Assembly (NCBI RefSeq): GCF_964355755.1
Contig: NC_092676.1
Coordinates: 11,204,288 to 11,268,287, forward strand
Source of the DNA: Antedon mediterranea
Lineage: Eukaryota > Echinodermata > Crinoidea > Comatulida > Antedonidae
Direction: 5' to 3'
Length of the DNA stretch: 64,000 nt
Shown here: in pieces, positions 20,791 to 54,100 of the stretch
Numbering within the stretch: position 1 is the first letter of the stretch
How the letters are laid out: the number at the start of each line of letters is the position of its first letter
The notes under the pieces: model-generated
What the model saw: only the letters and a program-made list of their open reading frames with translations
Databases searched by the model: none
What the model was told of the DNA's origin: nothing
Translations under genes and position numbers: made by a program

Positions 20791-21236
20791 GCTAGACAGA
20801 CAGGCTAGACAGACATACAGGCTAGACAGACAGACAGGCCAGACAGACAGGCTAGACAGACAGGCCAGACCAGACAGGCTAGACAGACAGACAGACAGGC
20901 TAGACGGACAGGCCAGACGGGCTAGACAGACAGGCTAGACAGAAAGGTTAGACAGACAGGTTAGACAGACAGGCTAGACAGACAGGCCAGACAGACAGGC
21001 TAGACAGACAGGCTAGACAGACAGGCTAGACAGACAGGCCAGACAGACAGCCTAGACAGGCTAGACAGACAGGTTAGACAGACAGACAACCTAGACAGAC
21101 AACCCAGACAGACAGGCCAGACAGGCTAGACAGACAAACAGACATGCTAGACAGACAGACAGACATGCTAGACACGACAGACAGGCAGGCTAGATAGACA
21201 GACAGGCTAGACAGACAGACATGCTAGACAGACAGA
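20791..21236. repeat. Minisatellite, unit about 13 bp (GCTAGACAGACAG)
   Basis: About 445 bases are made of GACAGACAGGCTA-type units with frequent small variations (GACAGACAGACAGG, GCCAGACAGACAG). It interrupts pseudogene copy A immediately after the VPPGLPN motif. A GACA core is prone to slippage, which fits the length variation within the array. Confidence 0.95.
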
Positions 21237-36540: not shown

Positions 36541-37199
36541 ACGAAAATGGCTACACCAAGTGCTATCCACAAAGTGGCAATTGTTTCATTACGAGTAAGG
36601 GCGTGTGGCGCAGTGTGTTGGACGTTGGACTACCGATCGTCAGACCTAGGTTCGAATCCAACTCTCGCCGCATTGCTTGTATCCGTAGGCAAGATACTTT
36701 ACTTATGTTGCCTCTCTCCACCCAGGTGTATAAATGGGTACCCAGTTAGATCTAGACACAACTTTGCGCTGGTTACCGGCTGCATTATGGGAATACTGGG
36801 GTAATAATGCTTGTAAAGCGCATTTGAGCATGATTACTCATGAAAAGGGCGCTATATAAATGTGGTATTATTATTATTATTATATATTACGAAATAAACG
36901 AAGAAATGATATGTAAACTGGAACCTGAAAAGAAAAGTCTAGCCAGAAATGCAATCGAGGTATGTTCGTTGAATGGTGCAGATGTTGGACATGTTCCTGA
37001 ATGTTTGGCTCAGATAATAGCTCCGTTGATGAAAGATAGGACAGTAGTGCAGCTAGCCAAGATAACTGGAATGGAACGAACGGCCCCAGAAGGAAAATGT
37101 GTACTTGGTGGAGGTGTGGAAATTCCCTGCCGATTTTACATATTTGCCAACGAAGCAGACAAGAAAAAGATACAAGATGCGATCAAAGGGCTTAGGTGA
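36541..37199 (+). pseudogene. HIRAN-like domain ORF interrupted by a SINE
   Basis: Left of the SINE one frame reads WLHQVLSTKWQLF. Right of it (36886 on) it continues HYEINEEMICKLEPEKKS, NAIEVCSLNGADVGHVPE and GGGVEIPCRFYIFANE, with the stop at 37197-37199. VGHVP, followed about 50 residues later by GGxEIPC, is the pattern of HIRAN-type domains in multicopy invertebrate proteins I recall; HIRAN domains bind single-stranded DNA ends in HLTF. Removing the SINE with one 7-bp duplication rejoins the frame. It is the C-terminal part of a longer gene or an exon, and its start is not seen. Confidence 0.5.
36595..36885 (+). mobile_element. tRNA-derived SINE with LINE-like tail
   Basis: Length is 291 bp. 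The head has an A box (TGGCGCAGTGTG, about 36606-36617) and a B box (GGTTCGAATCC, 36649-36659). The body (CACCCAGGTGTATAAATGGG) resembles widespread invertebrate/V-SINE-like sequences. The tail (TGTAAAGCGCATTTGAGC, GGGCGCTATATAAATG, then ATT repeats) matches the 3' end of the LINE fragment at 32910-32990. The target duplication is ATTACGA at 36588-36594 and 36886-36892. It is mobilised by the LINE whose 3' end it shares. Confidence 0.88.
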
Positions 37200-37840: not shown

Positions 37841-38951
37841 TGAATGAATAAGTTAGACATTTGTAAGTCTCCTGGTCCAGACAAAATAAACTCTCGAGTT
37901 TTATAGGAAACAAGTCTACAATTGGCTGATCTTTTGAAGCATTTGTTCACTAAACTGATGAAGCAAGGAGCTATCCCCCTATCTTGGGGCCTCGCAGACG
38001 TTATACCTATATTCAAAAAAGGAAATAAGTCTATACCTTTGAATTATAGACCAGTGAGCCTGACTTCACTAGTATGTAAAACTATGGAAACATTCATTAG
38101 GAATAATATAATGGATCATATGGAAAGCAACAATGTGTTTACCAAAAGTCAACATGGTTTTCGGCCAGGTAGGTTATGTAATACAGCACTACTAGAAGCG
38201 ATTAATCAGTGGACCAAATGGTTAGATGAAGGTTCGAGTTTCGATTGCGTTTTCTTGGACTTTTGATAGCGTTCCACACAAAAGATTAATTAAAAAGCTG
38301 AAAACATATGGTATATAGGAGGAAACTTTTAGTGCAGTGGATAGAGGCGTTCCTTACTAATAGATCACAAGTAGTTGTAGTCCTCAAGGAAGTGTTCTAG
38401 GACCACTGCTTTTCAACTTGTATATCAACGACCTTCCTTATCAAATTGATTTCGAGATAACAATTTTTGCAGATGACACCAAGATTTTTAGACAAATAAA
38501 TAATTTAGATGATGCCAAAAAGTTACAAGATGACATTGACAAGCTGTTTAAATGGTCTATAAAATGGCAACTACCGTTTAACTTAGAAAAATGTAGTGTC
38601 ATGCATTTTGGTAGGAAGATCATTAAATTTCAATACAAGATGGGCTATGCATAAAACAAGAAACTACTACAATGGGTCTCCAAAATGACAGATCTCGGGG
38701 TCGTAATTGATGATAACTTAACTTTCGAATCACATGTTTCTCAAGTTGCTATGAAAGCGAACCAAAAGCTGGGAATCATAAATACGTCTTTTAATTATTT
38801 ATCCTGTCACTCCTTATCTCTTCTGTATAAATCGATTGTAAGACCATCCATGGAATATTGCAGTACTGTTTAGCTGCATGCTTTTTTTAAAGGAATCTGA
38901 TAAGTTGGAAAAGGTTCAACAGCGTGCATCAAGAATGATAACAGATTTACG

Positions 38952-39300
38952 CAATAGGGTTGGTGAACATCAGTCCAAAATACGCAGAATTTTTTCCAAA
39001 ATACGTCAAGTTGAGGGCGCTATACTAATCCAAAATACGCGAGTCTTTCCAAAATACGTCAAGTTGAGGGCGCTTTTCATTTTCCAAAATACGCGAATTG
39101 TCCAAAATACGTCAACTTGAGGGCGCTATTCATTTTCCAAAATACGCGATTTGTCCAAAATAAGTCAAATTTTGGGGTGCTAGTAACTTTCCAAAATACG
39201 TCAACTTGAGGGCGCTATTTATTTTCATAAATACGCAATTTCTCCAAAATAATTTTTGGGGCACTTGTTCCAAAATACCTCATACCTAGGCTACTATTAA
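38952..39300 (+). repeat. Left terminal inverted repeat made of CCAAAATACG units
   Basis: TCCAAAATACG or close variants recur about ten times, separated by (C/G)AAGTTGAGGGCGCT. The array is the mirror of 46478-46743. Reiterated short motifs within TIRs usually serve as multiple transposase-binding sites. Confidence 0.88.
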
Positions 39301-39475
39301 TTTTCTAAAAATAGGAAAATTATCCAACTTAAAACAACTTTTGTAGCGCTATTAATTTTCTACAATAGAAAGTTATCCGACATACCCCCCAACTTGAAGA
39401 CACAGTTTTCTCAAATACGCGAATTTTCCACAAAATATTCGAACCTTCAAAACGCGAGGCTGTTTTCAAAAATAC

Positions 39476-39483
39476 TATAAAGG
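39476..39483 (+). promoter_or_regulatory. TATA-box-like promoter of the KDZ-like transposon
   Basis: TATAAAGG lies just inside the left TIR. It is followed by a short putative first exon ending at a GTAAGT donor (39520), and a TTTCAG acceptor at 41184-41189 precedes the coding start at 41306. This fits a capped 5' leader with an intron of about 1.7 kb. Confidence 0.4.
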
Positions 39484-39519
39484 ATTGTATCTTCAACATT
39501 GAAAAGGAGAACCATTTTG

Positions 39520-41189
39520 GTAAGTTTTAAGTTCAGTTTGTATCATATAAGATATCGATAATACAGTAGGTACGGTCTTGTAGTAGTCTCATTGGCTATA
39601 ATATATATCAATATTTGTTGTATGTTAGGCCTATATCTATATTGTCCCAAAAAGCAATAGCTTAAGTATACGTGTAGGCATATAGTTTAATTGGTATACT
39701 TAACTACCTTAGTAGGACAATGCAAGTTATGTTATTTTGTAATAAATGAATGAAATAATAAAAAGAAACAAGAATAAAAATACTCTAGATGATTATACTA
39801 GGTTATATCATTTGGTAGTGGTGGTCCTGTAGCCATACATTTTTTTTCTGAAAACAACCAAAGTTATACAAAGTTTTCAACCTACAAAAATACGATAACC
39901 AGTTACTATTTTTGATGAAAATATTTTCTCAAATCAACTAAATTACGTTGTGATAATAATTGAAATAAATTAAAATCATACATACGATATAACGATTTCA
40001 TTTTGAATCATTTAAAATTTTATAAAATCAGTTTCATCTAAGGCAGTATAAATGCTTGTAATAGTTCTAGGATACACATTTTTTCAATACATTTTTGTTT
40101 TCTGTATAAATATATAAGTTTATTTATTGTCGACGATGTCGCCCACAGTTAATAGCATTCAACATAAGTATACCACAACTGACCAGTTGCTCTAACCACG
40201 CACGATACGTAGCCTCCCAGGAATAAAGTTGATATAACCTCATGACCTTTTCCATCGTAAAATAGTTACAAGTGGCAGTTTTAAGCGATTTTTGACAGCA
40301 TTATTAATCAGCCCCTAAAATGTGCAGACAACTTAGGATGAAGCAAATGTATATGAATATCAATTTCAATTCATTGGTGGGTAGATGTTTGATTTTAGTG
40401 GTATAGGGCGAGAGAGTCCTCGTAAATTGAGGCTGAGGTGAGAGACCTTTTAGATGAACCTTTAGTTGGTCGGAAATCACTCACAAAATCACAAAAATAA
40501 AAAGAATAAATATTCAAATGTTTCAAACAGCATTTAATATACCTGTCGATGTACAGTAAAAAATCTATAATTTTATTGAAATTTAAAATGGTATAATTAA
40601 GCCTATGACTGATTTTGACTCCTGAAAATTTAATTGGTGGGGAGGGTACAATCCCGCCGTTCATTCTCAAGGCTGCACAATTTTTCATGGTACCCATAAC
40701 CAGGGCTTTGTATCTGCCCGCCCCAATCCATGTAATTCTAGATAGAACCAGGTAAAATGAAACAAAAATAAATTAGCCTATTGCATTCATTATTATTATT
40801 ATATTATCATATTATATATTATTATGTTTATGTCTTCTTTCCTAATGTAATTATTTGTTTGTATTTTTAAAGGATACTGTCAATACATATCGACACATCG
40901 ATTCCTAAGTATAATGTTTAATAGGCAAACCAAGATGAAGATGTAACAAAGGTATGCTACAAGATATAATAATATGTGTGCAATGCATCGTTTTATCGAG
41001 TTAATAAAAACTAGATTTATTTATGGTACTGTATCTAGATTTCTCCAGTATAGGAATATTCACATGTATCTATCAAAAACCTAACCCTTAGCCTAACCTT
41101 ACTTGGTACAGACTCCAAATGTGATACACACTACTGAGAAGAATCGGGTAAAATAAGTATTAATACTAACTTATTTTCCTTAATTTCAG
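39520..41189 (+). other. Probable 5' UTR intron of the transposon gene; no ORF
   Basis: Donor TTTTG|GTAAGT at 39520, polypyrimidine tract and acceptor CCTTAATTTCAG ending 41189. The stretch has no recognisable coding sequence. Confidence 0.4.
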
Positions 41190-41305
41190 AGTTTGTTGCT
41201 GTTTAATTAAAGAAGATTTTACATAAAGTACCACTCTGAGAATTTCTAGCAGAGAGACAAACACAACTGTATATAACTATATATATATATAGGTTTTAGA
41301 AAAAA

Positions 41306-44300
41306 ATGAAGTGCCCATATTGTCAAAAAACCTGGTCAAACAACTCTGAATTAAAAAGACACATTTCTTGTCACGAAAAACGATCGGTATTTATCCCAGC
41401 CACAAACAAATTAGCACAAGTACATGTGCTTGCTTGTAAATGTGAGGAATATTTGTATAAATGTGAGGATAGGTACCATTACCATTGTCCACATTGTAAA
41501 CTAATAATACGAAGGAAGAATGAAGTTATTCCGCACATAAACTCACATCATGATAATAATGCTGAAGTTCCAAGTACTCCAAAAGACGCACAAGCTATCA
41601 AACAGGACAAACGGAAAGCCATCGATGACGAGGGAAAGCTTAATAAACGACCCAGATTTCAGCCAGGTGTATGTGTTGACATGGTAGAGGGTATTTTTCT
41701 TGTGAGGAAATGCATGCATGGTGGTGTGGCATATCCATGCCATGTTCAGAAGTGTAACATAAACAGCAAGATATCTATGTGTGAAGTATCAGAATGCCGC
41801 ATAGTGATGGATGTTGCTAACAACAGTGGTATTCCGGTGTATGAGTGCTCTCATTTACAAGAAGCATCCAGGGTTTCGTATGGCACGTTTACTGGTCTTG
41901 AAGAACATGTACTTACAAGTCTGTCCGAAGATGGATCTTACAAGATGTTTAGCAAGACAACGACAGAGCGATGTACTGTTCTTCGGGATGCTGCTTTAAT
42001 TGGTGGAAAAGTTCCAGTGGCCTATTATAGAGATGGTCGATACACCCATCTATCAGTTTATGATGGTGAAACCGGATATTACAAAAGGTTTAAGAGAGTT
42101 GCGTGCACATTTGATGCAAAGACGAATAATATATCTTGTGGTTGCTGCAAACTCAAGTTTACTTGTGTTCATAAGGCCATGTGTTTTTGGCGCATGGTCC
42201 AAGACAACATTATCCCAAAAGCAACACCAATCAAGAACGTAAATGACCAGGAAAGCGAAAAGAACGACAATTGTAAAAAAATGGATCTAGGAGTGAAGAC
42301 AACACCGAAAGATTCAGTTGCTAAAGATACGGTATTATATATATACACTAATAAACAAATTCCAGAACCATTCAATCAGTTTCTCCCAGAAAATAATGAC
42401 TGGCCAACTGAATTAATACCATCTGAAAATATTTGTCATAAATGCAATGCCAAATTGGGGCAACCTATACGTATTCTAAGGAAGTCTAGTCTGCTTACAA
42501 TGACAGGAACGCACTTTGTACAAGTATATGTAAAGAAATGCACTGAGTGTAAATTAACAACCTATTATAAGGAACATCAACAAGGTGTCTTCAACTTTAA
42601 CGACTCATTTATTCTTGGTTTTGACGTTTGTGCCTGGTTGAGAGCGGGAGTAAATCATCATGTAGCAATAGGGAGTGTTGTAAAACAGATAAAAGACATT
42701 CTTTCAATTGATCTTGACGAACATCTTGTTATCAACGCTTACCTAGCATTTGAAGCCTTAACAGAAAAAGAACATCCAATGAATTGTGTCGTGTGTGGCT
42801 ATTATCCTACTATTATAATCATGGACGTTGATCGAAAAATACATTTTAGAATTCCAGTTTCAGATCTTCGTAGACCACAACATGATGATCATATTAACGA
42901 GACAGTAGATTGTGAGACCTTTTACAGAAAGGTGGATCTCCACATAATTTCACGAGGCCTCATAAATGTAGCACACGAGAATCCATTTCCTATAGAGGTG
43001 AGCTTTGATAACTGGGCACCCTACATGGGAGAACATACAAGAGGATCAATTGAGCTATTTAATACTGAAATAAGGAAAGTAACATCGGATGGAAGTCTAT
43101 CTAGCGATTGCCGGGAGATGAGCGAAGAACGTCTGCTTGAGATGTTAACACAGTCTAACCTGAAAGAGGTTAAAAAAATTGCAAAGATTCTAAATTTGAA
43201 AAAAAAAGGAGCAAAAATTGACATTATTTGCGCAATAAGAGAGTCATTAGCAAAAAACTCTGAAAATTTTAACAAAGTTATGAAGAAAGTATGGGGATGT
43301 TCAGGAGGAATTTTGACCGCTCACTGTCCCCACGGAATTATCTATGGTTTCAAATATATCGTTAAAGCAGAGAGCCCACGAGACTATGTTGACATTATTC
43401 GGTCTATGAAACACAAGCCCAACATAGTTGTAGTGGATATGTCCCATATTGTTGTAAAATTTGCAAACAATTTCCACTACACTGATCAAACAGACCCAGT
43501 TTTTTTTCCAAATGATGGTAGATTGGCTGAGCCGACAAAAGAAAACATTGATCTTGCAAAGTCCAATAATCTTCAGGTACCCATGACATGGCTTAACTCC
43601 TCGTCGAAAGTGTTTGACAAAGGTCATCCTGTAACCGGAAGAAACGAGACCTTTGCACTGTTTGACAAGTTTCACGAGAAAAATGCTAAGGGTGCAGAAG
43701 AAATAATCAGGAGAGTTGATTTGGTTCCACAATTAAAGGGGATACTTAACACACAAGTCGCTGAACAGTTTTATTCAGATCTCAACAAATCCAAGCATTT
43801 CCTCAACTCAATGTCGATTCCAAACCACATATTTACAGCAAGGATGATCATTGACATGTCAAACCAAGTTCTCAACAGAAAACACATTAAAAAAATTCAG
43901 AAATCAGTAAACGTTCAAGTAACAAGTGACCTCATTGGTAGGATTAAAATGACTATTGGTTGTGCTGATGCAAGAAATATACACCATATCCCAGACGATG
44001 ATGCATCATGTTCTTCCCACAAATTCACAGACGTACCAACATTAATCCCAAAGGCAACTAACCCAGCCTCAGATTGGTGGATAAAAGATCTTGGTTTGAA
44101 ATTGGAAGACAGGAATCGGATTGCGCAATGGGGTTCCGAATTAAACGATCGCGTAATAAATGCTGCCAGTTCTGTACTTAAAGACAACTTTCCAGATAAG
44201 CTTGGACAGCTACATAACATTGTGTGTCACTTCCTTGCAACTGAGAATGACGAGATCGTCTTAGTCAGAGAACGAGTTCAACAACAGTCTGGAAATAATA

Positions 44301-45142
44301 CATGTGGTTTCTATGCAATAGCATTTGCAAGTGCCATATGCGACGGTCTAAACCCCAGTTTATTACAATTCAATACAGATGAAGCAACGATAAGAGAAAC
44401 TCTCATAAAAGGTATGGAAGAAAGAAACTTAAGGAAGTTTATGAGGACAGGTTACAATATCGTTACCAAAGAGAGTGTTAAATATGATGATTCATGGAAA
44501 GTAAGTGTTGTTTGCAGTTGTCGTATGCCACCAGATGAAGATACCACCATGTGTTCATTGTGTGGTAAGCATTTACACAGGAAATGCATACAGAATAAGG
44601 CTGCTGGATGGTGCGATGAATGCGCCATCAAAAGAAGAAGAGAAGAGGAAGAGCGACAAAGGAAACCAGAAGAAATGAATCAAAAGGTGAGAGAACAAAT
44701 ATCATCCAAGAGTCCACACAAACTCCTTGAAGAAATCCATCATCTATACTCAACCATAAACGGTCTAGTATACTTCGGAAAACTTCCAAATCCAGATGGC
44801 CATGTATTCATCCATGAATTAACACGAGATATATGCGTACATAGATGCTTTGGCCAGACTTTGTTTTTGGGCAAGTCGTCCAGCTTTATAGTACTGGACC
44901 CAGGAGTAAATAAATGTCTCAAAGATTACTACGAGACACTCATACACGAAATGGGGCATATGTATATTTTCAGTGTTAATGTAAATGAGCAGCCTCATGG
45001 ACCAAAGTTTACAAGCCAGGTTAAGAAGTCTGTTTCCATTTTAAACAAGCACAGGAATTCACTACCAGGGCAATTTAAAGATATGATTGCAAATAAAGAC
45101 AAGGTAGCTAAAGCAAAAACATCCTCAAGTAGTATTATCTAG
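41306..45142 (+). CDS. KDZ/HMGXB3-like transposase fused to Ulp1-like remnant, PHD finger and SprT-like metalloprotease
   Basis: 1278 residues, uninterrupted. Two C2H2 fingers (C3/C6...H19/H23 and C61/C64...H77/H81). SWIM-type zinc site at 278-289 (CxC...CxH). The RNase-H-like transposase core has candidate acids D507 (IIIMDVDRK), D711 (VVVDMSH) and E820 (QVAEQFYSDL), with a SAP-like insert near 608-650 and the signature CPHGIIYGFKYIVKAESPRDY (674 on). A C48/Ulp1-like end spans 933-1040 (LNDRVINAASSVL, QQQSGNNTCGFYAIAFAS) with the catalytic Cys1000. The segment that should carry its His and Asp appears deleted. A C4HC3 PHD finger spans 1070-1106. A SprT-like domain has H1214-E-M-G-H1218 and H1231 in HGPKF. 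SprT proteases cut DNA-crosslinked proteins; here a role at transposase-DNA complexes is speculation. KDZ assignment rests on recalled HMGXB3-type motifs. Confidence 0.8.
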   Translation: MKCPYCQKTWSNNSELKRHISCHEKRSVFIPATNKLAQVHVLACKCEEYLYKCEDRYHYHCPHCKLIIRRKNEVIPHINSHHDNNAEVPSTPKDAQAIKQDKRKAIDDEGKLNKRPRFQPGVCVDMVEGIFLVRKCMHGGVAYPCHVQKCNINSKISMCEVSECRIVMDVANNSGIPVYECSHLQEASRVSYGTFTGLEEHVLTSLSEDGSYKMFSKTTTERCTVLRDAALIGGKVPVAYYRDGRYTHLSVYDGETGYYKRFKRVACTFDAKTNNISCGCCKLKFTCVHKAMCFWRMVQDNIIPKATPIKNVNDQESEKNDNCKKMDLGVKTTPKDSVAKDTVLYIYTNKQIPEPFNQFLPENNDWPTELIPSENICHKCNAKLGQPIRILRKSSLLTMTGTHFVQVYVKKCTECKLTTYYKEHQQGVFNFNDSFILGFDVCAWLRAGVNHHVAIGSVVKQIKDILSIDLDEHLVINAYLAFEALTEKEHPMNCVVCGYYPTIIIMDVDRKIHFRIPVSDLRRPQHDDHINETVDCETFYRKVDLHIISRGLINVAHENPFPIEVSFDNWAPYMGEHTRGSIELFNTEIRKVTSDGSLSSDCREMSEERLLEMLTQSNLKEVKKIAKILNLKKKGAKIDIICAIRESLAKNSENFNKVMKKVWGCSGGILTAHCPHGIIYGFKYIVKAESPRDYVDIIRSMKHKPNIVVVDMSHIVVKFANNFHYTDQTDPVFFPNDGRLAEPTKENIDLAKSNNLQVPMTWLNSSSKVFDKGHPVTGRNETFALFDKFHEKNAKGAEEIIRRVDLVPQLKGILNTQVAEQFYSDLNKSKHFLNSMSIPNHIFTARMIIDMSNQVLNRKHIKKIQKSVNVQVTSDLIGRIKMTIGCADARNIHHIPDDDASCSSHKFTDVPTLIPKATNPASDWWIKDLGLKLEDRNRIAQWGSELNDRVINAASSVLKDNFPDKLGQLHNIVCHFLATENDEIVLVRERVQQQSGNNTCGFYAIAFASAICDGLNPSLLQFNTDEATIRETLIKGMEERNLRKFMRTGYNIVTKESVKYDDSWKVSVVCSCRMPPDEDTTMCSLCGKHLHRKCIQNKAAGWCDECAIKRRREEEERQRKPEEMNQKVREQISSKSPHKLLEEIHHLYSTINGLVYFGKLPNPDGHVFIHELTRDICVHRCFGQTLFLGKSSSFIVLDPGVNKCLKDYYETLIHEMGHMYIFSVNVNEQPHGPKFTSQVKKSVSILNKHRNSLPGQFKDMIANKDKVAKAKTSSSSII

Positions 45143-46477
45143 TTAAAAAGAATGTTTAGACATTGTGTCGGGCCAATTTAGAGCGTTTACTTTTCATAAA
45201 AATTTAAGATAATTATTATAGTTCTATTTGAGTATCATAATAATGTTACATTTTAGCATCACAGGCATAGAATAACTCAAAACCGCCCGGTGATATACTG
45301 AAATTTAATTAATTAATCTGAAACGATAACGACGAGGAAATCTGTGAGAATAAGAAAAAGTCATTAGACCACTGGGGCTTTCATTGGATTAGTTCAAACT
45401 CGATTGGATAGCGACTCTTTATATTATCGGCGTTGTACGGCGGAAAAGCACTAGTCCCTTAATTGTACGCACGCGCACCAGGATCAAATTGATACGCCCT
45501 CATCTTATATATATAATTATATATATATATATATATATATATTTATTTCGAAAAATAACTCCAAACTAGTCACCTCATTTTTCCCCTTCTCGTATTAATC
45601 ATTTCATTTCAGGTATTTTTTAACAATAAAACACCCTAAAGTAAATGTAATCATATGTATATAATATACATATACATATATATATATATATATATTTTGC
45701 CGTTTTTGCGTAAAAAACAATTACTTACTACTTATATAACCAAATATTAATATTATTTGAAAAGTTTTAACAATAATGGTTTTTAATTATTACTTACTTT
45801 TCATAAGGATTGAAGATGATATTATAGTTCAGTTTGAGGATCATAACAATGTTATATTTAGATCTCTCTCACTCAACCGAACCATTTTGAACTTTAACTA
45901 ACTGTTTTAACTATGGGTATTTTGCCGACGTTTTCGTGTAAAAAATAATTACTTTAATTTTTCCAACCAATTATTGATATTATTTTAATTACAATACCAT
46001 ATGCTTTTTAATTATATAAAATATGAAATAACTATTATGTTAAGTTTTCAGATTAGGTAACTTGTATTAGACCATAAGTACATTAAATTGAAAGCGATGT
46101 TGGTCTGTCGAGCTCGGAAAAAATATCAATTTTGTAGATCACCAAATATATAACACATACCTATGACTATACTTGTACATGCTGTTTTTGTAGCCGGTTT
46201 ATGCCTCATTTAAACAAGCTACGTCTGGCAATGAAATCGTACATCGTTCAGACATTATTAATGTATATTATAGGCACTGTCTATTGACTGATGTTAGCAC
46301 ATATTTGTTTTTATTCAGTAATAAATAATAATTGGCTACTCTATGGCATTTTATTTACAAAAAAATCTGCCTTCCAATAATTTCATTTATAACTAAAATG
46401 TCCTTGTTTGTTTTAGTCTAAGAAACTTTTTTTTATTACATTAAACTCTCAATATGATATGGTATTTTGGAAGAAAG
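45143..46477. other. 3' non-coding part of the transposon with (AT)n tracts
   Basis: No ORF. AT microsatellites lie at 45508-45542 and 45664-45696. A segment near 45190-45260 (TTTTCATAA, ATTATAGTTC, GAGTATCATAATAATGTTA) recurs with changes at 45797-45860, an internal degenerate duplication. Confidence 0.45.
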
Positions 46478-46743
46478 TTTGCCGCCCTCAAGTTGACGTA
46501 TTTTGGAAAATTACTAGCAGTCTCAAATTGACGTATTTTGGACAAATCGCGTATTTTGGAAAATGAATAGCGCCCTCAATTTGACGTATTTTGGACAATC
46601 ACGTATTTTGGAAAATGAAAAGCGCCCTCAAGTCTACGTATTTTGGAAAGACTCGCGTATTTTGGATTAGTATAGCGCCCTCAACTTGACGTATTTTGGA
46701 AAAAATTCTGCGTATTTTGGACTGATGTTCACCAACCCGACCC
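46478..46743 (-). repeat. Right terminal inverted repeat made of CGTATTTTGG units
   Basis: Mirror of 38952-39300 with GCGCCCTCAAGTTGACG spacers, ending ACATCAGTCC-type sequence in reverse (GGACTGATGTTCACCAACCC) and GACCC, then the target duplication. Confidence 0.88.
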
Positions 46744-47270
46744 GATTTACGTCAGCTTTTCAAAATGCACCTTCCTACTCTAGAATACAGAAGATTGAGA
46801 CCCGCAATGATTGAAGTATTAAAAATGTTCTACGGTTTTATTAAATGTAACAATGAGGATTTTTTAGGTTAAACATCGAATCTAGAACCAGAGGACACTT
46901 TTTGAAAATTAGTAAACCTCGTACTCATTCAAGGATCCGGCAGAAATGTTTTACCAACTCTGTTATCAACAAATTGAACAACTTTCCTCAGGATGTAATA
47001 GAAGCTGCAAATGTTAATCAATTTAAAAACCGATTAGAAAAGTTTTGGAAACACCACCCACTAAAGTTTTTCCCACATGATAGGACATGTAATAGAATAT
47101 ACCAGAGGGACACACAAGCATTGCTTTAGATGTCCAAGATCAAGGTAAATTCAAGGTAAATAATAGAAGATGAATTCCATATAAATTATTCCACCTTTTT
47201 CTATCTGAGAGTGTGAATAAAGTTATTCTTTATTCCTTGTTGGTTATTCCTTGTTGGTTGTTATTTGTTA

Positions 47271-48124: not shown

Positions 48125-51100
48125 CTGAAATTTCAAGACAGAATAATAATACAGTAACAATAATTATTTATTAATATAAAGTACCCTGTTTATGGTCTCA
48201 AAGAAAATATATTTAGGTATAACAGACTCATTAACTAGCAGTAACCTGCGCTCCGCACAGTCTTTTTTTGCCTTAATATGTGGTTCATGGGCAAGTATAA
48301 TATAAAAGCGCACTCTGATAAGTACTTTGACAAATTATCAAAATAAAAACAAATTGTATCAAGAATAAAATTCTAAACTATTTACGGCCATTGATTTTTC
48401 TATACACTATACCTTCACTTTGAAATATATGTAAGCTAAAAAATGAAAGCAATACTGGATATGGAACTTTAGACTTTACTTTTGACTGTCAGACTTTATG
48501 AAAATAAAAGATGCTACAGAAAAATTGTGCTGTGTGAATTAGTGCTCGCAAACACATAACGAAAGTATAAAATGCCAAACTATATTATTGTGGGTGTTTT
48601 TCATGGTGTATTCATTATTTGATACATATAGGTAAAATAAAAAAGTGGACTGTTGTATACTAAAGATGTTTGTGGATTACAATTGATTGTTTATAGACCT
48701 CATGACTTAAACACAGTGTAAACAATCGTCCATTTTGTAAATCAGTATTATTTCAACATAGGTGGCGCTATACTAATATTTAGGAGTATCTGAGAATACT
48801 ATAGCTATACATAATACATTACAATTCTCCCAGAAATAATTTAAAGGTGGGTTAAACATTTGGGCGTGTGAACAATATGAGTTAAAGTTATTTGTAAGAA
48901 TCTTTTTTCTGTTTTATATTTTTTTATATATATTTTTTTTTTTTTTTAAAGTTTTATAATACGATATATACAAAAGAACATTCAATAATTGTATGCTATA
49001 ATACAAACATATTTAAAATTATGAATCTGTAAAGTGAATATATCTTAAGGTCCCTTAATAATGATAATTGATAGTGAACAGTTTAGTGTTCATCCATTAC
49101 ATATATATTGTTGTACAAGGTGAAAGAGAATAATTGAGATTTATATATGAATTAAAAATCAATGTTCAGTTCAAAAGTCTTGTGTATTTTATTGGAAGAC
49201 AATGAGTTCATTATATTTCAGCTATAAGCCTTTTAGGGCTTTTGACCACTCTCTTGGATCGTCTTGGTATTTTAGCATTCATGATTTCTTTATTTACTGC
49301 TTCTTCGCTTTGCTGATTGTTTGCAATTGAAGGTGGTGTTTCCTTTGTTGGTGTTGGTGTCGCTTCCGGTATGTACTGTGGTGTCAATGTCGGTGAGGTG
49401 ATTTCTGTAGTTTTCAATAGCGTTTCGCGCAATTGTTCGACATGTCTATTCCACAGTCCTCCTTGTTGTGTTTTCACTTCGTATGACAGTGGGCCATTTA
49501 CTGCTATAATTTCAGCTGTTACCCATTTATCCTCATTTCTGTAATCTCTAGCTAACACTTTTTGTCCAATTTTGAATTCACGTTGTTTTCCTGGGTTTAC
49601 TCTTTGCTTGTTTTGATTCTCGAACACTTTCCGCTTTAGATCAGGTTTAATTAGGTCAAGTCTTGTTCTCAAATTTCTATTTAGGAATAACTGTGCTGGA
49701 CTTACACCGGTTGTAGCATGTAGTGAATTCCTGTAGTGTACTAAGAAATTGTCTAACTTTAGCTGTTTACTTCCTTTGTCCAGTTTTGCCGTTTTCAAGG
49801 CATTTTTAAATGTTTGGACTATGCGCTCTGCGAGACCATTAGTCGCAGGATGATAAGGTGCAGAAGTAATGTGAGTGATACCATTGCTTTTCAAGAACAT
49901 TTCGAACTCACTTGACTTAAATTGCGGTCCGTTGTCTGACACAAGTATCTTGCATAGGCCGTATCGTGCGAATAGACTTCTCAGCATGGTAATGGTTTTA
50001 CTCGAAGAGGTATCTCTAGTCGCTAATACTTCTGGCCATTTGGAGTGCGCGTCTACAACTACTAAGTACATAATGCCGTCGATAGGACCTGCGTAATCGA
50101 TATGGATGCGGTCGTATACGTTTTCAGGCCACTCCCACGGGTGTAATGGTGCTTTTGGTGGCTCTTTCATGTTAAGTTGCCAACCTGGACATGCTTTCGC
50201 TAATGTCTCAATATCGTGGTCCATTCTGGGCCACCAACAGTAGCTTCTCGCGATAGATTTCATTTTTACTACCCCGAGATGTCCCTGGTGGAGTTCGTCG
50301 CTTACTTCTTTTTGTAGCTTGGGAGGAATAATTATTCGGTTCCCCCATAATAAACATTCATAGATTAGATTTAATTCGTCCTTTCTACGGTAAAATGCTT
50401 CAAGTTCGTCGTCTCGTTGGCTGGGCCAATCGTTTTTCGTGTACTCTAGTACTCTAGATAATATTGGATCACGTCTGGTATGTTCCTTAATTTGTTTAAA
50501 CGTGACAGGCAGTGCTTCAAAGCAATCCGCGTAAAATAACTCTATGTCGTCAGGTTTGTTTGACTTTTCGCTTTGCATGTGTAGTGGTAGTCTCGACAAT
50601 GCGTCAGCATTCATGTTATCTGCGCTTGGACGGTAGACGATTTCATAGTCAAATCCTGAAAGAAAAATTGCTTGTCGCGTTAACCTGGCTGCTGCCGTAG
50701 CTGGAATTGCTTTCGTTGGGCTAAACAGTCTTGTGAGTGGTTGGTTATCGGTTAACAATGTGAACTTTCTTCCTAACAGGTATGCTGTAAATTTCTTTAC
50801 TCCATAAACGATACCTAGTGCTTCTTTGTCTATTTGCGAGTAATTCTTTTCCGCAATTGTAAGGCTTCTCGAAGCAAATGCTATTGGGCGTTCTTCACCG
50901 TTTACGACGTGTGATAATACGGCACCAAGACCGTATGGGGATGCATCAGTTGCTAATCTCACAGGTAGCTTTGGATCGTAGTGCGCGAGTACACACTCTT
51001 CCGCTATCATGTTTTTTACTTTAACAGATGCTTTCCATTCGCTAGACCATTTCCATTTTTTTTCTTTCTGTAGTAGCTGATGTAATGGGTAGAGAGTAGA

Positions 51101-54100
51101 TGACAAGTTGGGTAAGAAACGATGGTAATAATTGATTAAACCAATAAACGATCGTAGCGTTGATACGTCTGTGGGTGCTGGGGCATTTACCACCGCGTCA
51201 ATCTTGTCCAACGACTTATGAAGACCTTGTTTGTCTATCACATGACCTAAGAAGGTTACCTTTGTTTTCAGAAATTGACATTTGTTCTTATTCAGAATTA
51301 GACCACTTTCCTTTAGTCTTTCTAAAACTTGTTTTAGGCGCTCCAAATGAACGTCGTCATTTTGACCAGTTATAATCATATCATCTAGTATGCAGGCAAC
51401 TCCTGGGATACCTTGGAGTACTTGCTCCATAATCCGCTGCCATATGCCGGTCGCTGGGGTTATACCGTAGGGTAGTCTATTTACCTGGTATAGCCCTTTT
51501 TGTGTGTTAATGGTGAGTATTCGTTTTGCTTCCTCACTCATTTCCAAGTGTAAGTATGCGTTTTTTAGGTCTAACTTTGAGAATTTCTCTCCTCCAGCTA
51601 GTGTTGCAAATATGTCCTCAATTTTTGGCATTGGGTGTTTGTCAGGTTTTATTGCCGGGTTGACAGTGACCTTGTAGTCACCACATAATCTAATAGACTT
51701 ATCAGGTTTTACAATGGGAACTATAGGTGTAGCCCATTCGCTGAATTTGATCTGTGTGATAATGCCTTCTTTCTCGAGTCTGTCGAGTTCCTTGTCTACT
51801 GCTGGTCGCAGTGCGTAAGGTACTTCCCTGCTTTTGCAGAATTTTGGTGTAGCGTTCTCTTCCATGTGAAGGTTTGCTTTTTGTCCTTTCAGTAGACCCA
51901 CTCTTCCTGAAAAGAGTTCAGCGTATGTTTCTATCAGCTGAGTAACTTTTGTATGAGCTTGGCTGTTTGTATTTACGTTGAAGATTTCATGCCATGGCAG
52001 CTTAATCTTGTTCAACCACGCTCTTCCAAATAATGGAGGTCCACCATTTTCTACAATAAACAATTTGCTATCTACTGTTTGTCCATTGTAACTCACGTGA
52101 GCATTACAAGCACCAATGCATGTGATTGGTTCGCCGGAGTATGTTTTGAATTTTTCTAGAACCGTATCTAACCTCGTGTTCGGGAAATACTTGCGAAAAT
52201 CATTGTGGTTCATAATTGAGTAAGTAGCACCAGTGTCTAGCTCCATATTTACTTTCACTCCGTTTATGTATGGTTGGATCCAAATTGGAGTCGTATCAGA
52301 TTCAATATTGTCAATTGTCACTGTAATTTGATCGAGTCCCTTTAATTCAACGTCATCGTCCGACTCTCCCTCGACATTGTGAAATTGTTTAAATTTATGA
52401 CGGTTCGTACCTTTGTATGCAGGTTTCGCCTTTGAACCCGCTTGACTTTTCTTCTTTTTGAAGCAAGCTTTTTCAATGTGACCTTTGCCCTTACAGAAAT
52501 TGCATATCGTGTCGATAAATTTGCATTTGTCAGATCGGTGCGTGTTGCTATCGCATCGGTGGCATATTGACTTAGGCTTAGTGTGCTGTGCTTTGTAAGT
52601 TTTGCGTGCGACGTAATCAGTGCTGGCGGTTGGTTTACCACTTATTTCTGTGGCGTCTTTTTGAGCAGATTCCATTCCTAAGGCTAACTCGGTTGCTTTT
52701 GTAAGTGTTAAGTTGCTTTCTGTTAGGAGGCGTTTTTGTATGGCTGTTGACTGCAATCCTACAACTAGTTTATCCCTGATGGATTCGCTTAGCTTGTCAC
52801 CGAAATCACAGTGTTTAGTCAGATGCCGGAGTTCAGCTAGAAAGTCCTTAATTGACTCTCCTGGTTTCTGATTTCGTTTGTAAAATCGGAACCTCTCCGC
52901 TATAACTAAAGGCTTGGGTGAGTAATGCGTGTTTAGTAAATCGCATAGCTCTTTAAACGTTTTGGTTTTTGGTAATTCTGGTGTGCATAGGTCTTTTAAC
53001 AGGCCATATGTTTTGGGTCCTATCACTGTCAGTAGTGTTGCTACCCGTTTATCATCCGCTATACCATTAGCGTCAACATAGGATTCCAGTCTTTCCGCAT
53101 ATGCGGTCCAATCTCCCGAATCGCCTTCGTAAACTTCTATGTTTACAAAATTGTAGGCATTTTTGGTTATAATTGTTCTATAACGTTACCTTATTTTAAT
53201 CTTCGTCGCCAATTTGTTGTATACTAAAGATGTTTGTGGATTACAATTGATTGTTTATAGACCTCATGACTTAAACACAGTGTAAACAATCGTCCATTTT
53301 GTAAATCAGTTTTATTTCAACATAGGTGGCGCTATACTAATATTTAGGAGTATCTGAGAATACTATAGCTATACATAATACATTACATGGACATCGAATG
53401 AAAAACACGAAACTGCGGAAACACGAACTGTTAAGTTGTTTTCATGTTCAACGATATATCAAACGATTTGGAATCATTTTGTTTGTGTGTGTTCATTTTT
53501 ATTCATTTACATTTTTTTTCAATGGCTTTGATATTTTGCAATTTTTTTTGTGTGGGAGATTTGTTACCTATTTGCTACTTTTATAATTAAATTGTTGTCT
53601 AGCCATGTGACGTGTGAATATTAATCTAGGGTGCGCATCAGAAAGTGACAATGCACATTAAGTCCGTCAATCAGTTAAAAACCTTTTAATGATAAAATAT
53701 GAATTGGTAATTAGTTATAAGAATTAAGATGGAATATAAAAAAATCAACACAAAGTGTGTGGTAGTTGAAATTAGATCGGACACAAACTGTAAAATTTTG
53801 GAATATTTTGTGGAAACACGACACCCATTTGGATTCTTTTATTTTTTATTTTGTTATTGTTCATTTACATTTTTTTTATTTCAATGGTTTTTTTATATTT
53901 TGCAATTTCTTAGTATGAGGTTTGGCATCTTTTTTGCTATTTTTGTAATTACATTGTGGTCTAGATTTGATTTTTTGCTTTAAGCGGTGAGACTTATTAT
54001 TTACAATTAAATCGCGGATTCAAATTCGAACGTACTAAGCAATGGCCACAGCATTTTACTCACTGAGCCACACAGTGATTTACAAAAATCCTTCTGTTCA

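Follow-up and report, generated by a model that had tools for sequence, protein, structure and literature searches.

The question raised by this locus of the crinoid Antedon mediterranea is whether a DNA transposon can carry a protease of the SprT type in the same chain as its putative transposase, and what such a protease would do for it. The stretch analysed, called the window below, comprises 64,000 nucleotides of contig NC_092676.1 (positions 11,204,288 to 11,268,287, assembly GCF_964355755.1); an earlier note, made from its letters, had pointed to a single 1278-residue frame inside an element with terminal inverted repeats (TIRs). Our analysis suggests that this element is a KDZ-like transposon with a C-terminal SprT fusion, the KDZ affiliation resting on a CxC4 cysteine cluster and an 8-bp target duplication. 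The features that define the transposon and its protease are the following (window coordinates):

38944-38951, no strand: left 8-bp target-site duplication GATTTACG, exact repeat of 46744-46751
38952-46743, + strand: whole transposon, 7792 bp, delimited by TIRs and 8-bp target duplication
38957-39214, + strand: left TIR, with ~53-bp subterminal repeats and eight occurrences of CCAAAATACG
41306-45142, + strand: single open reading frame (ORF), 1278 aa
44717-45079, + strand: SprT-like metalloprotease domain, residues 1138-1258 (Pfam stretch 1179-1241)
44945-44959, + strand: HEMGH catalytic motif, residues 1214-1218
44996-44998, + strand: third zinc histidine, H1231
46483-46738, - strand: right TIR, with nine occurrences of CCAAAATACG (reverse)
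46744-46751, no strand: right 8-bp target-site duplication GATTTACG, exact repeat of 38944-38951

The frame is present as described, running from ATG to TAG uninterrupted by stops, whereas shuffling the mononucleotides of the element 200 times gave no stop-free stretch longer than 153 codons in any frame. Its C-terminus is SprT-like and is predicted to be a metalloprotease with intact catalytic residues. The SprT-like family PF10263 scored 34.5 bits on the C-terminal piece against a curated cut-off of 25.6, and the closest solved structure was human Spartan (6mdx, E 6.8e-5), in an alignment that places HEMGH over HEMIH and HGPKF over HGPEF, with ETL.HEM.H....F and HGP.F aligned. A profile built from the window protein and two related loci of the genome, L009 and L016, retrieved 6mdx too (E 1.8e-4). 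The SprT identity claimed by the earlier note is thereby upheld at the level of sequence, and the residues of its proposed site, H1214, H1218 and H1231, lie at the positions given, together with E1215; all four are retained in L009.

To place the fusion in the genome, the window protein was compared by tblastn with the 354-Mb, 18-contig assembly, which gave at least 44 matches (36 of 95 candidates scored); 18 related stretches of 10 kb were extracted from these matches and compared again by tblastn. Among the matches listed, the best after the window itself had 51-58% identity over parts, and there was no second copy of the exact window ORF family. The second intact element, L009, has an open frame of 1338 aa from the first methionine, its own TIRs and its own duplication GAATTACC; its protein is 48% identical to that of the window in global alignment and 41% by tblastn. 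Its SprT domain scored 25.8 bits, barely above the cut-off, with HEMIH, HG and the third histidine retained. With 13 candidates scored, the SprT profile matched the genome at six places, three of them in elements, namely the window, L009 and L016 (24.2 bits, under the cut-off), and three in two loci that, judged from their translated exons, appear host-like: L047, with GCNA-like exons reading HELCHG..DGHGKFW, and L048, with a SPRTN-like exon pair. Since L009 has the same domain and the same catalytic residues, the transposase-SprT fusion looks like a retained feature and not a local accident; the case in which all other copies lack the domain, which the earlier note had considered, is excluded by this element.

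The protein match extended past residue 1200 in seven of the 18 loci, mostly decayed (L009, L010, L011, L012, L015, L016 and L025), and ended at residue 1188-1198 in three others (L013, L017 and L023), that of L013 stopping before the position of the third histidine. L011 and L012 had the same match scores, and L020 and L021 have identical stretches in common. By reading of its translation, L017 keeps only the part preceding HExxH, followed by retroelement-like sequence.

Selection was examined between the window and L009 as raw pN/pS (the ratio of the proportions of nonsynonymous and synonymous differences) with bootstrap, since for 11 of the 12 regions no estimate of the synonymous rate dS could be obtained. 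In the SprT region (115 codons) pN was 0.407 and pS 0.768, a ratio of 0.53 (bootstrap 0.41-0.68); the core had the lowest ratio of the four regions (0.31), and the Ulp1-PHD region and the linker gave 0.46 and 0.44. For the 28-codon SprT core dN was 0.63 and dS 2.2. With pS this close to saturation, the measured ratio is expected to be an overestimate. The SprT domain, with a pN/pS well below 1, was under constraint during the divergence of the two elements, though not more than the neighbouring regions.

Upstream of the protease, the chain contains the following modules:

41306-41560, + strand: C2H2-like zinc fingers, residues 1-85, under the Pfam cut-off
42137-42172, + strand: SWIM-like CxC..CxH, residues 278-289, motif only
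42392-42652, + strand: CxC4 cysteine cluster, KDZ-associated, 35.9 to 39.0 bits against a cut-off of 26.9
42605-43951, + strand: putative transposase core, residues 434-882, candidate triad D507, D711, E820
43118-43255, + strand: SAP-like stretch, residues 605-650, not significant in Pfam
44201-44455, + strand: truncated Ulp1/C48-like motif, motif only, Q..C part kept
44513-44623, + strand: PHD-like C4HC3 finger, residues 1070-1106, under the Pfam cut-off

Several of these had been named in the earlier note and stand as patterns only. The C2H2 fingers are seen in the sequence at 22.6 bits, under the Pfam cut-off of 27; the SWIM motif (C278, C280, C287, H289) is conserved in L009, its region having no Pfam match; and the C4HC3 pattern of the PHD/RING-like finger falls below the Pfam cut-off. 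For the KDZ-like core, what remains is CxC4 and the 8-bp duplication, as no Pfam transposase model matched the window core (E up to 5) or the cores of the window and L009 (E up to 10). CxC4 scored 37.4 bits when the window protein was scanned in pieces, and in the genome scan it exceeded the cut-off only in the window (39.0 bits) and L009 (33.5 bits), two of 11 scored candidates; that of L009 was unlisted in the whole-protein scan and reached 28.8 bits in the core-piece scan. The acidic residues D507, D711 and E820, identical in L009, are a candidate catalytic triad. The SAP-like stretch (72% identity to L009) and the Ulp1-like region, both absent from the earlier note, are motif readings, neither significant in Pfam, Ulp1/C48 having no Pfam match in either protein. 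L009 has the HW, D, Q and C of the Ulp1-like motif; because the HW and D stretch is missing from the window copy, its Ulp1-like peptidase is probably dead. The two elements thus differ in peptidase content. A charged linker (residues 1109-1135) precedes the C-terminal protease domain.

The TIRs and the duplication that frame this ORF are real, and the element they delimit is larger than the coordinates of the earlier note. The TIRs are ~259 bp long and 95% identical between arms, the outer 103 nt showing no difference, and contain tandem repeats of ~53 bp. Because CCAAAATACG has no occurrence in the window outside the TIRs, it may be a transposase binding site. Both copies of GATTTACG sit 10 nt outside GGTGAAC. 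An element devoid of target duplication was also considered, since no repeat abuts the TIR edge and the flanking retroelement frame, judged by eye, is readable across the junction with nothing removed; it was rejected on the 8-bp repeat found at a constant offset in long and short copies alike. Among two-ended long copies this repeat was found in six of eight (the window, L009, L010, L011, L012 and L013, the printed 10-mer of the last two including two element bases), L015 and L025 having no 8-bp repeat at that offset. A search of the genome with the window TIR, in which the best 40 of 201 candidates were scored, gave as a lower bound 44 matches, 40 of them near full length; two are the window's own arms, leaving at least 38 further arms at 91-95% identity. 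Besides the window's own, 19 TIR loci were excised, of which 16 were two-ended and two proved to be one copy, which leaves 15 short elements, each roughly 1.1-1.3 kb long. An exact duplication of 8 bp was present at offset 10,10 in 13 of these 15 and absent from L030 and L045. As the short copies share 8-bp duplications at one offset, TIRs of the window type were mobile in the past, moved perhaps by this protein, perhaps by another.

SprT-type proteases elsewhere digest proteins stuck on DNA. The reading that we favour, tentatively and at a little under an even chance, is that the SPRTN-type protease clears DNA-bound transposase or chromatin protein around the insertion. In the single chain, a putative transposase core preceded by zinc fingers leads on to Ulp1-like and PHD-like modules and the SPRTN-type SprT domain. 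From the 8-bp duplication, cut-and-paste insertion would leave 8-nt gaps, and hence junctions of single- and double-stranded DNA beside the bound transposase; SPRTN activity is coupled to recognition of such junctions (PMC12279946; this and the other papers cited are drawn on in excerpt). After strand transfer, transposase held in a tight complex with the DNA would keep the gaps from being repaired, and the tethered SprT domain could cut this complex, or crowded host chromatin proteins, so that repair is completed. The PHD-like finger would supply chromatin targeting, and the Ulp1-like module, where intact, would strip SUMO. The tethered SprT could replace help of the kind that ClpX is thought to give other elements: for CRISPR-associated transposons (CAST), ClpX raised integration with wild-type TnsB in human cells 4.0-fold (mean of three sites), and the hypothesis is that it assists in taking apart the post-transposition complex (PMC12326709).

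Several observations weigh against this reading. The zinc-binding subdomain that follows the protease in SPRTN is absent, the last cysteine being residue 1204, before HEMGH; DNA-dependent activation therefore cannot be assumed, and activation would differ from that of SPRTN. The Ulp1 histidine and aspartate are missing from the window copy. SprT is among the more variable parts of the protein, with 39% identity between the window and L009, where the second half of the core reaches 60%. In eight of the 18 loci (L014, L018-L022, L024 and L026) nothing matches beyond residue 880. Four decayed relatives of L009 (L010, L015, L016 and L025) keep HEM(I/V)H with the third histidine changed to asparagine, L011 and L012 show the same change and no longer have HExxH, and a stop after KLP is common to L010, L011, L012, L013, L015 and L025. 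From the decayed copies and the eight loci devoid of the protease region, it follows that the protease is not required in cis by every relative. Of the six copies with the KLP stop, four differ in their flanks and each has an 8-bp duplication of its own, and L015 and L025 have a left flank in common; this subfamily may therefore have spread while already defective.

What follows the transposase core differs between relatives, as listed here in locus coordinates:

L023:4223-5344, + strand: PHD-like finger and ALKBH2-like 2-oxoglutarate dioxygenase stretch, where the window has SprT
L018:7482-8168, + strand: core exons followed downstream by exons of an OTU cysteine protease
L021:7650-8435, + strand: core exons followed downstream by exons of an OTU cysteine protease

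L023 matches the window protein to residue 1188 and continues with the PHD-like finger (23.0 bits, cut-off 24) and the ALKBH2-related stretch (E 8.9e-6; 17.9 bits in Pfam, under the cut-off of 31.2), in which the AlkB-like HxD..H metal ligands seem replaced. In L018 and L021 the second OTU exons scored 30.2 and 28.8 bits against a cut-off of 23.3, which the first exons did not reach (18.7 and 18.3); as no TIRs were found within these 10-kb loci, they may be host genes. This arrangement suggests an exchangeable accessory slot behind the transposase core. A wider proposal, which we regard as doubtful, is that an animal transposon lineage swaps host genome-maintenance enzymes in this slot (SprT, present in two or more intact elements; AlkB-like, in one further locus; OTU, in relatives), that SprT would be the first transposon-encoded protease of the DNA-protein-crosslink type, and that the element would be self-sufficient in disassembling its transposition complex.

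Several other functions could be proposed. The protease, together with the Ulp1-like and PHD-like modules and, in relatives, the OTU and AlkB-like ones, could be directed at the host and not at the transpososome, stripping silencing proteins or their SUMO/ubiquitin marks and thereby allowing expression or insertion of the element. The Ulp1-like, OTU and ALKBH2-like modules, all of types that have modified proteins or nucleic acid as their targets, and the TET/JBP genes of fungal KDZ elements, a precedent for cargo acting on the epigenome (PMC12730594), are in agreement with it. But SPRTN degrades DNA-crosslinked proteins regardless of their amino acid sequence (PMC7826251), so that a silencing factor would have to be targeted by other means, of which none was identified here; moreover, the loci with OTU exons are perhaps host genes and the AlkB-like stretch has apparently lost its ligands, and we consider this function possible, if rather unlikely. 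Less probable by a clear step is a self-limiting regulator, in which the protease cleaves its own or sister chains and thereby releases or switches off the transposase: SPRTN undergoes autocatalytic inactivation (PMC7826251) and the domain lies at the C-terminus behind the charged linker, but there is no apparent cleavage site or second protein. About as improbable, or slightly more so, is that SprT is a captured passenger or a non-catalytic binding domain in decay, as the loss of the third histidine in six related loci, two of them also devoid of HExxH, and the stop shared by six would have it; against this, the window and L009 keep all catalytic residues and score above the Pfam cut-off, and the pN/pS of the domain points to constraint. 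That a host gene fused to SprT lies between chance inverted repeats, or that the assembly is misjoined, is very improbable, the single copy of the exact ORF among the matches listed being set against the TIRs, the 8-bp duplication, the further TIR arms and the independent element L009.

The transposon adjoins reverse-transcriptase coding sequence (window 37922-38263, and from 46752 onwards) and, from a reading of the flanks, appears to be inserted into the end of a non-long-terminal-repeat retrotransposon. Elsewhere in the window are a tandem array of 34 copies of the 13-bp unit GCTAGACAGACAG (20791-21218), a short ORF with a HIRAN domain (36840-37199, + strand; 31.5 bits, cut-off 24.7) and a Ty3/gypsy-type polyprotein (49211-53026, - strand), a 1271-aa open frame with reverse transcriptase, RNase H and integrase.

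Compared with known systems, the window element resembles Zisupton and other KDZ transposons in its TIRs, its 8-bp target duplications and a CxC4 above the cut-off, and differs in its C-terminal SprT and in lacking a transposase core recognised by Pfam; the target duplication is 8 bp in Zisupton and Dileera and 7 bp in Kyakuja, which has no TIRs (PMC12730594). SPRTN is the best solved relative of the protease domain, with the catalytic motifs aligned, whereas the window domain has no zinc-binding subdomain after it and is fused to a putative transposase. ACRC/GCNA likewise has a SprT-like domain with HExxH and a third histidine within a larger protein (PMC13092972), but has no transposase, and by eye the window motif is nearer to SPRTN. 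The job proposed here, removal of transposase after strand transfer, is that of ClpX with CAST or Mu complexes; ClpX, however, is a separate host unfoldase, and the window element would tether a protease to its transposase. Fungal transposons with TET/JBP are also DNA transposons bearing a host-type enzyme of DNA or chromatin, but the enzyme is another one, and here it lies within the transposase chain. The accessory domains named for KDZ/Zisupton elements are TET/JBP (PMC12730594) and F-box (PMC12062965), and the excerpted text of the latter, on F-box and Zisupton, has no mention of SprT. As the earlier note had supposed, no report of a transposon with a SprT fusion was found in the open literature searched (Iyer 2014 and Boehne 2012 lying outside its scope), and the fusion in a KDZ-like transposon appears new. 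No relatives outside this genome were matched in the protein database (3623, 5 and 2626 candidates), phage records or viral contigs; these collections are perhaps poor in animal genomes, so the negative says little about distribution.

To our knowledge, the removal of eukaryotic transposases after strand transfer is poorly understood. A transposase that naturally has a protease tethered to it would make this question directly testable by one active-site substitution and, if the reading is true, would take SprT enzymes from host repair into the biology of mobile elements.

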